DNA from: Actinomycetales bacterium
Lineage (GTDB): Bacteria; Actinomycetota; Actinomycetes; Actinomycetales; Cellulomonadaceae
Direction: 5' to 3'
Length of the DNA: 36,344 nt
Assembly (NCBI GenBank): GCA_012514545.1
Contig: JAAZAC010000105.1
Location: forward strand, 1 to 36,344
Shown: positions 16,132 through 30,226 of the stretch, in pieces
How the letters are laid out: each line of letters begins with the position of its first letter
How positions within the stretch are numbered: position 1 is the stretch's first letter
Program-made: the position numbers and the translations under genes
Notes under the pieces: generated by a model
What the model saw: the letters and a program-made list of their open reading frames with translations, nothing else
Databases searched by the model: none
Told to the model about the DNA's origin: nothing

Positions 16132-16887
16132 TCAGAGGCTGCGCAGCACCGCCACGACCCGGCCGAGGACCACGGCGTCGTCGCCCGGGATGGGCTCGTA
16201 GGCCGGGTTCTGCGGCAGCAGCCACACGCGGCCGTCCGCGCGCCGCAGGGTCTTGACCGTCGCCTCGCCCTCGATCATCGCGGCGACGATCTCGCCGTTC
16301 TCCGCGACGGGCTGGCGCCGGACGACGACCCAGTCGCCGTCGCAGATCGCCGCGTCGATCATCGAGTCGCCGCTGACGCGCAGGAGGAACAGCTCGCCCT
16401 CGCCGACGAGCTGGCGGGGGAGCGGGAAGACGTCCTCGACCGCCTGCTCGGCCAGGATCGGCCCGCCCGCCGCGATGCGGCCGACCAGCGGCACGTACGT
16501 GGGCGCGGGCGCGGCGTCGCCGACCGCGAGGTGCTCCTCGCCGAGGGCGAGCGGCGCGGCGCGGCGCGAGTCGTCCGGGTGGCGCACCTCGATGGCCCGC
16601 GGCCGGTTGGGGTCGCGCCGCAGGTAGCCCTTGCGCTCGAGGACCGTGAGCTGGTGCTTGACGGAGGAGGGGCTGGTGAGGCCGACGGCCTCGCCGATCT
16701 CGCGCATGCTCGGGGGGTACCCGCGCTGCTCGACGCTCGCCCGGATGGTCTCGAGCACCATCCGCTGGCGGGGCGTGAGCGCGTCGGCCGAGCGCGCGTC
16801 GTCCAGCTCGTGCACGGACGCGAGCCCCTGCGTGTCGCCCGTCGCCGCGGCGTCGCGCGGGTCCTGGTCCGATGGCGTGCGTGCCAC
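16132..16887 (-). CDS. lexA: SOS repressor LexA
   Basis: Winged-helix DNA-binding domain ([44 protein letters not shown]), Ala-Gly cleavage region (GRIAAGGPI), catalytic Ser (SGDSMIDA) and Lys (EATVKTL). GTG start at 16887 behind GGAGG-type RBS. Confidence 0.97.
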
Positions 16888-16963
16888 TGTCGCCTCCTTC
16901 GCCACGGCCGTGTCGGTGGCCCGTGGTCCGATGTCGCCAGCGTAGGGCCGGCGAGCGGCGAGA

Positions 16964-16979
16964 TCAAACATCTGTTCGA
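16964..16979. promoter_or_regulatory. LexA (SOS) box TCAAACATCTGTTCGA
   Basis: One mismatch to the Gram-positive/actinobacterial palindrome TCGAACnnnnGTTCGA; upstream of lexA. Confidence 0.85.
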
Positions 16980-16986
16980 CGTGTCG

Positions 16987-17015
16987 TGGACAGTGTCGGC
17001 CTCGCGTGATAGATA
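16987..17015 (+). promoter_or_regulatory. Putative sigma-70-type promoter for the LysM gene (TGGACA-N17-TAGATA)
   Basis: -35-like 16987-16992, -10-like 17010-17015, 17-bp spacer, directly followed by the operator array. Confidence 0.6.
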
Positions 17016-17061
17016 TCGTACAGGCGTACGACGGACAGGTGTTCGACGGACGCGTGTTCGA
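17016..17061. promoter_or_regulatory. Three 15-bp-phased LexA-like operators
   Basis: TCGTACAGGCGTACGA (17016-17031, perfect inverted repeat), ACGGACAGGTGTTCGA (17031-17046), ACGGACGCGTGTTCGA (17046-17061). Confidence 0.7.
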
Positions 17062-17083
17062 CGAAGAGGCTGGGAGGCACACG

Positions 17084-17440
17084 ATGAGCGCGATCACGGT
17101 GGACGTCGCGGGCAGCACGTTCCGTCCGGCGCGGGACGCGCGCCGAACCCAGCTGCGCCTGACGGCGCGCGGCCGGGCGGTCGTCTGGGTGCTCGCCGGC
17201 CTGCTCGGTCTCGCCGGCCTGCTCGGCGCGCAGGCGGCCAGCGCGGGGACGCCGCCGCCCGCGCAGCCGGTGGAGACGTACGTCGTGGCCCCGGGCGAGA
17301 CGCTCTGGGGCATCGCCGTCGGGCTGGCGGAGCCGGGCGAGGACGTGCGCGACGTCGTCGCCGAGCTCGTCGAGCTCAACGGCCTGCCGGGCGTGGCCCT
17401 GCGGGCCGGGCAGCAGATCCTGCTCCCCGCGGGTCGCTGA
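17084..17440 (+). CDS. Small membrane-anchored LysM-domain protein, divergent from lexA (candidate SOS cell-division inhibitor)
   Basis: One TM segment ([20 protein letters not shown]) then LysM ([18 protein letters not shown]...[21 protein letters not shown]). Position matches Rv2719c/DivS/YneA-like genes next to lexA. Confidence 0.85.
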
Positions 17441-17630
17441 CCGGAGGGCGCCGGGGCGCCGATCGGAAGGGCGTCGGCCACGGCGGTGGCGGCCGGGCGG
17501 CGCGCGGAGCGGCCCTGCCGGGTGCCCGCGGCGGTCCTTGCAGCGGCGCACGGCGCTGCGTAGCGTGATCGGGACCCGCCGGCCCCCGGCGGGCGACCCG
17601 CGCGCCGCGCGGCGGCCCCAGGAGGATCGC

Positions 17631-18125
17631 GTGCACTGCCCGTTCTGCCGGCACCCGGACTCGCGCGTCGTCGACTCGCGCACGTCCGACGACGGCGCCT
17701 CCATCCGCCGGCGCCGGCAGTGCCCCGAGTGCCACCGCCGCTTCACGACCGTGGAGACCGCGAGCCTGTCCGTGGTCAAGCGGTCCGGCGTCGTCGAGCC
17801 GTTCAGCCGGGAGAAGATCGTCGCCGGCGTGCGCAAGGCGTGCCAGGGCCGCCCGGTGAGCGAGGACGACCTCGCGCTGCTGGCGCACCGCGTCGAGGAG
17901 ACCCTGCGCAGCACCGGCAGCGCCGAGCTCGACGCCCACGAGATCGGCCTCGCGATCCTCGGGCCGCTCCGCGAGCTCGACGAGGTCGCCTACCTGCGGT
18001 TCGCGAGCGTGTACCAGGCGTTCGAGTCGCTCGAGGACTTCGAGGCCGCGATCCGCGCGCTGCGGGCGGCCCGCGAGGAGGAGGGCGAGGGCGAGCTCGT
18101 GGAGGCGGACGGCGCGACGCGCTGA
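17631..18125 (+). CDS. nrdR: Transcriptional repressor NrdR
   Basis: [42 protein letters not shown] zinc ribbon plus ATP-cone. Confidence 0.97.
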
Positions 18126-28505: not shown

Positions 28506-28521
28506 TCGAACGCCCGTTCGA
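28506..28521. promoter_or_regulatory. Perfect LexA (SOS) box TCGAACGCCCGTTCGA upstream of HEPN-dinB
   Basis: Perfect 6-4-6 palindrome TCGAAC-GCCC-GTTCGA, 17 bp before the HEPN ATG (28539). Confidence 0.9.
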
Positions 28522-28943: not shown

Positions 28944-28957
28944 GGCGAGCCGGTGCG

Positions 28958-30226
28958 ATGAGCCGGCACGCGCCGCCGCCCGGGCTCCGCCGCGACTGGG
29001 GCGACGACGACGAGGGCTGCCCGATCCTGCACGTCGACATGGACGCGTTCTTCGCGTCGGTCGAGCTCGCGCGCCGGCCCGAGCTGCGGGGCCGGCCGGT
29101 GATCGTGGGCGGCGAGGGGCGCTCCGTGGTGCTCGCCGCGACGTACGAGGCGCGCGCGTTCGGCGTGCACTCCGCGATGCCGATGACGCAGGCCCGGCGG
29201 CTCTGCCCGGCGGCCGTCGTCGTGCCCCCGGACCACGAGCGCTACCGCGAGGCGTCCGCGCGCGTCATGGCCGTGCTGCGGGACGTGACGCCCCTCGTCG
29301 AGCAGGTGAGCGTCGACGAGGCGTTCCTCGACGTCTCGGGCGCGCGGCGGCGGCTCGGGTCCCCGACGGCGATCGCCGAGCGCATCCGGGCGCGCGTCCA
29401 CGCCGAGCAGGGCCTGACCTGCTCGGTGGGCGTCGCCGCGACGAAGTTCGTCGCCAAGCTGGCCTCCGGCATGGCCAAGCCCGACGGGATGCTCCTCGTG
29501 CCCAGGGCCGCCACCGTCCCGTTCCTCCACGCGCTGCCGGTGAGCGCCCTGTGGGGGGTCGGCGAGCGGACGCAGGCGGCGCTCGCCCGGTGGGGGATCA
29601 CGACGGTGGCCGAGCTGGCCGCGACCGACGTCGCGACGCTCCAGCGGGCGGTCGGCCGCGCCGCCGGGGCGCACCTGCACGACCTCGCCTGGGGGCGCGA
29701 CCCGCGCCCCGTGACGCCGGAGCGGCAGGAGAAGAGCGTCGGAGCGGAGACGACCTTCGACGTCGACCTGCACGACCGCGCCGCGATCGAGGCGCAGGTG
29801 CTGGCGATGGCCGAGCGGTGCACGCGGCACCTGCGGGCCAAGGGCCTCGTGGGCCGCACGGTCGTGCTCAAGGTCCGCACGGCCGACTTCACGACCCTCA
29901 CCCGCTCTCGCACGCTGCCCGCGCCGACCGATGCGACGGCCGAGGTGTTCGCCGCGGCGCGGGACCTCCTGGCGGCCGTCGACCTGCGCGGCCAGGCCGT
30001 CCGCCTCGTCGGCGTCCGGGCCGAGGGGCTCGGGCCCGCCGTCGTGCGCCAGCCCACGCTCGAGGAGGCGAGCCGGGAGGCGGCGCCCCGCCGTCGGGCG
30101 GAGGAGGTCGCCGACGCCGTGCGCCTCCGGTTCGGCGCGCGGGCCGTCCTGCCGGGGGCCGTGATCGGCTCGGCACGCGCTCAACTACCGCCCCGTGCGG
30201 GAGGCGCCTATCCTGAAGGTCAGTGA
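28958..30226 (+). CDS. dinB: DNA polymerase IV (Y family)
   Basis: ILHVDMDAFFASVELARRPELRGRPVIVGG, SVDEAFLDVSG, CSVGVAATKFVAKLASGMAKPDG; 14 bp after the HEPN stop. Confidence 0.96.
   Translation: MSRHAPPPGLRRDWGDDDEGCPILHVDMDAFFASVELARRPELRGRPVIVGGEGRSVVLAATYEARAFGVHSAMPMTQARRLCPAAVVVPPDHERYREASARVMAVLRDVTPLVEQVSVDEAFLDVSGARRRLGSPTAIAERIRARVHAEQGLTCSVGVAATKFVAKLASGMAKPDGMLLVPRAATVPFLHALPVSALWGVGERTQAALARWGITTVAELAATDVATLQRAVGRAAGAHLHDLAWGRDPRPVTPERQEKSVGAETTFDVDLHDRAAIEAQVLAMAERCTRHLRAKGLVGRTVVLKVRTADFTTLTRSRTLPAPTDATAEVFAAARDLLAAVDLRGQAVRLVGVRAEGLGPAVVRQPTLEEASREAAPRRRAEEVADAVRLRFGARAVLPGAVIGSARAQLPPRAGGAYPEGQ

Follow-up and report, generated by a model that had tools for sequence, protein, structure and literature searches.

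The spacer between lexA and a divergently oriented LysM gene contains four palindromic LexA boxes, three of which form a head-to-tail array in exact 15-bp phase. These were found in the window, by which we mean the whole 36,344-nucleotide stretch of DNA analysed. We consider it probable, reading from the sequence, that the spacer holds a multi-LexA operator which tightly represses an SOS cell-division suppressor, and that PafBC supplies a second DNA damage input to the same gene.

LexA boxes and genes of the spacer

On one side the spacer is bounded by lexA, encoding the SOS repressor (16132..16887, minus strand; TIGR00498 equivalog match of 252 bits against a cut-off of 111, with PF01726 and PF00717), whose start codon appears to be GTG. 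On the other lies a gene for a small LysM protein of 118 residues (17084..17440, plus strand; PF01476 match), which is followed by nrdR (17631..18125, plus strand; TIGR00244, 163 bits against a cut-off of 125). A GGGAGG ribosome site can be read 5' of the LysM gene ATG at 17084. By eye the LysM protein has a hydrophobic stretch in addition to its PF01476 domain, and together with its place beside lexA and LexA boxes this gives a ChiZ/YneA/DivS-type layout. The YneA model NF010723 matches it weakly (26.5 bits), below the cut-off of 60, and it was therefore not filed as YneA itself. We presume it to be a ChiZ/YneA-like SOS cell-division suppressor.

Boxes were scored over 12 positions against the actinobacterial LexA consensus TCGAAC-N4-GTTCGA. 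Box 1, TCAAACATCTGTTCGA (16964..16979), is the candidate lexA operator and matches at 11 positions. Each of the array units matches at 10: unit 1 (box 2), TCGTACAGGCGTACGA (17016..17031), which sits at the expected start site and is conserved in relatives; unit 2 (box 3), ACGGACAGGTGTTCGA (17031..17046); and unit 3 (box 4), ACGGACGCGTGTTCGA (17046..17061), which is lineage-specific. The sequence-only reading had described four palindromes, three of them in 15-bp phase, and both points are confirmed, with the array spanning 17016-17061, its units beginning at 17016, 17031 and 17046 and adjoining 16-mers sharing one base. Its interpretation of them as LexA operators is well supported by these scores and by retention of the phased pair in relatives. 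In array units 2 and 3 the left half is degraded (ACGGAC), and given this these two could be weak LexA sites.

A chance origin of the array was ruled out. Across the 36 kb of the window chance would yield about 1.4 sites scoring at least 10/12, compared with the four found within 98 bp, and outside the spacer only two other places in the window score 10/12 or better, one of them the perfect box at 28506. In 6 Mb of simulated first-order Markov sequence there were no pairs of such sites 8-39 bp apart, which indicates that the array is not accidental. A pattern search of the genome, in which only the best sites were checked for neighbours, found no perfect LexA site elsewhere with a 15-bp neighbour; the array is thus promoter-specific.

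The genome encodes further SOS components. LexA (TIGR00498) is accompanied by RecA, pieces of which lie on two contigs: the window begins inside recA (4-261), and the start of the gene is found on a second contig (C140:28171), where a LexA box, CGAACACGTGTTCG, precedes it by about 190 bp. Elsewhere in the window, at 28506-28521, stands a perfect LexA box, TCGAACGCCCGTTCGA. It lies in front of a dinB-like gene for DNA polymerase IV (about 28946-30184), which is accordingly a probable member of the SOS regulon.

Promoters and a PafBC-type element

The LysM gene promoter, TGGACA-N17-TAGATA (16987..17015, plus strand), has its hexamers at 16987-16992 and 17010-17015. It had been proposed from the sequence to stand immediately before the array, and this holds: the hexamers are present and their positions are conserved in relatives, which carry TCGACA-N17-TAGACA at the same places. 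A stringent sigma-70 scan did not call this promoter at the scan threshold. Since the array begins directly after the conserved -10, its units would cover the start site and leader and would belong to the LysM gene. The sequence-only reading had compared the array with boxes at lexA promoters; it is better assigned to the LysM gene promoter, with the single box at 16964 as lexA's own operator. A presumed lexA promoter, TTTGAT-N18-TACGCT (16939..16968, minus strand), can be read from the sequence, and its -35 would fall inside box 1.

Within the LysM gene promoter we also found a PafBC-type element missed by the sequence-only reading, TGTCGG-N10-TA (16994..17011, plus strand). PafBC promoters were defined by TGTC[GA][GC]-N10-TA-N3-T across the -35/-10 region; the window element matches as far as the TA, and the final T of TA-N3-T is absent (TAGATA), which makes the assignment probable rather than certain. 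The gap between TGTCGG and TA shows a strong preference for 10 among relatives: 51 of the 134 family loci and 39 named loci have it, with every other gap found in 0-4 loci. Two adjacent WYL genes, encoding proteins of 338 and 322 residues, form a pafB-pafC-like pair, assigned only by WYL domain and tandem layout. A structured leader RNA was considered and rejected, as an Rfam search of 16800-17700 gave no match.

Phasing and unit number among relatives

The comparison set comprised the 134 family genomes in which the spacer could be read, the window included, and 80 named actinobacterial loci; in the family spacers the first box served as the anchor for reading phased units. A pair or longer run of LexA boxes spaced by 14-17 bp is present in 131 of the 134 family genomes, and at least three units in 26. 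Matches of at least 9/12 occur relative to the first unit at +15 (112 genomes), +16 (19), +30 (17), +31 (4) and +32 (5), so that all 131 phased-pair genomes have a +15 or +16 unit and 26 a unit at +30-32, with positions further out giving a background of about 0.1 genome each; a handful of matches also fall at +27. The consensus letters of both common units are nearly invariant in relatives while the flanks vary freely, and box 1, as [TCG]CAAACN4[AG]TTCGA, is present in all but two of the loci examined. Among the named loci, spacing is 15 bp in Cellulomonadaceae and Nocardiaceae, 16 bp in Streptosporangiales (e.g. Actinomadura and Nonomuraea) and 17 bp in Geodermatophilaceae (e.g. Blastococcus), and mycobacterial LysM-side boxes are about 20 and 22 bp apart.

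Absence or loss of phase of the units in close relatives, named by the sequence-only reading as evidence against its proposal, was looked for and not found, as 131 of 134 genomes retain the phased pair. The same count shows that the packing is conserved and overturns the accompanying claim that it is unusual, at least for this promoter; tandem boxes at 15-17 bp are the rule in many Actinomycetes and a 1+3 arrangement has been published. Two of the three exceptions (L162 and L182) have boxes separated by 30-31 bp and nothing recognisable as a middle site, as if that unit of a phased triplet had eroded.

Distances between box 1 and box 2 are mostly 51-55 bp in relatives, with others at 48-49, 60-65, 79, 101 and 112 bp, and strict helical phasing of the two boxes was rejected because these values are too varied; the usual distance arises because the promoter sits between them. 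Three loci from the window's genus (L085, L096 and L129) have box 1-array distances of 101, 112 and 79 bp, respectively, compared with the usual 52-53 bp, and keep the 15-bp phase.

The window genome seems to belong to the genus Actinotalea, because genomes of the same genus have LexA identical to that of A. lenta and A. solisilvae. Three units are found in 3 of the 18 genomes of this genus; the other two of these three do not group with the window genome, whose sister (G143; support 100/98) has two units. It is possible, although we regard it as doubtful, that the third unit arose as a tandem duplication and is neutral, contributing little to regulation, and that only the conserved pair works. 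Its absence from the sister genome would fit this, as would the 13/15 identity of the window's units 2 and 3, both of which contain the atypical G of ACGGAC. At box 3 this G occurs in about 1% of family genomes, compared with 10 of the 26 third units, and its presence in both units suggests recent duplication or copying between them. Against neutrality, a phased third unit is almost uniform in some other genera (4/4 genomes in g14 and 11/13 in g21), with its core letters kept. Together with the sister that lacks it and the scattered three-unit genomes, this indicates that the unit is lineage-specific and has been gained or lost several times, repeatedly within the genus and always in phase.

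A coding origin, in which the 15-bp units would be five-codon repeats in an N-terminal extension of the LysM protein, is extremely improbable. The frame is open in the window and a GTG at 17006 is in frame, but among relatives the array is found in each of the three frames with respect to the LysM gene, some with stops between, which argues that it is not coding; other relatives have 16-bp spacing, and the ribosome site precedes the ATG at 17084.

Proposed mechanism and comparison with known systems

What the sequences show is the sites, how they are conserved, phased and distributed over lineages, and the preferred PafBC spacing. From these we infer that the spacer is a divergent region of SOS control, in which LexA binds, fills the sites together on alternating faces and represses, and we likewise infer the timing of repression and the function of the LysM gene. 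On box 1, a single LexA dimer would cover the lexA promoter and give lexA autoregulation. Two to three more would fill the 15-bp-phased array, from just past the -10 into the LysM gene 5' leader, and would keep the likely cell-division suppressor off until RecA-driven cleavage of LexA clears all the sites. Stacking of several middling sites could thereby keep repression tight and make the release late and steep, much as in colicin genes of E. coli, where two overlapping SOS boxes bind two LexA dimers and basal expression is very low or undetectable (PMC2994835). The PafBC element in the LysM gene promoter would probably add RecA-independent activation.

At 10.5 bp per turn, spacings of 15, 16 and 17 bp place neighbours about 154, 189 and 223 degrees apart, on nearly opposite faces, whereas 20 and 22 bp bring them back to roughly the same side of the helix. 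The near-opposite placement fits with dimers avoiding a clash, and LexA on the array may accordingly be packed on opposite faces and may bind cooperatively. We think it unlikely that the array instead holds one dimer at a time, with mutually exclusive units raising local capture of LexA and no stacked complex forming. Adjacent units do share a base, and in phage GIL01, where two boxes adjoin, LexA binding is non-cooperative and double occupancy is doubted (PMC4551915), which counts against simple stacking. However, exact 15-17-bp phasing over many genera exceeds what local enrichment needs, the 15-bp offset would itself ease a clash, and for the overlapping colicin boxes binding of two dimers has been reported.

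The stacked operator also permits a broader proposal, which we advance only tentatively: the 15-17-bp register may reflect a defined LexA dimer-dimer arrangement on alternating faces, in a modular operator to which whole units are added or from which they are removed to tune when the division brake is released, and in Actinomycetes generally a single promoter would combine this operator with activation by PafBC. Among the relatives, one orthologous promoter carries two, three or occasionally four phased LexA sites, a clean natural series that would allow the influence of operator number and of helical phase on SOS timing to be measured. These spacers also point to joint LexA and PafBC control of a presumed division brake outside mycobacteria.

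The closest parallel is the M. tuberculosis lexA-Rv2719c (chiZ) spacer. PMC8151990 reports four SOS boxes there, confirmed in vivo, one for lexA and three, with a PafBC motif (TGTCGG-N10-TA-N3-T), for the opposite operon, which it prints as Rv2019c-Rv2017c and which we take to be Rv2719c-Rv2717c. On this description the two spacers have in common lexA opposite a LysM-gene operon, 1+3 boxes and a PafBC motif directed away from lexA. They differ in that the mycobacterial LysM-side boxes, at their wider spacing, share no base, in contrast to the 15-bp units of the window. ChiZ, DivS and YneA are SOS division suppressors whose genes have been noted to lie near lexA, and YneA and ChiZ carry an extracellular LysM domain (PMC3989709). 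The LysM gene resembles these in its position and candidate SOS control, although its match to the YneA model is below cut-off. Overlapping LexA boxes are common to the window and the colicin genes, but the latter have two boxes of another consensus on a plasmid-borne gene. In vitro, LexA of S. venezuelae binds the dnaE2 box TCGTACGTACGTTC, and the lexA and dnaE2 operators of that species share with the window the box consensus, several boxes per promoter and a TCGTAC half-site, which in S. venezuelae is bound; unlike for the window, no phased three-unit array is described for them in the available part of that study (PMC9380542). The layout of the spacer is thus of a kind already described in actinobacteria, and the 15-bp overlap and third unit are its local form.
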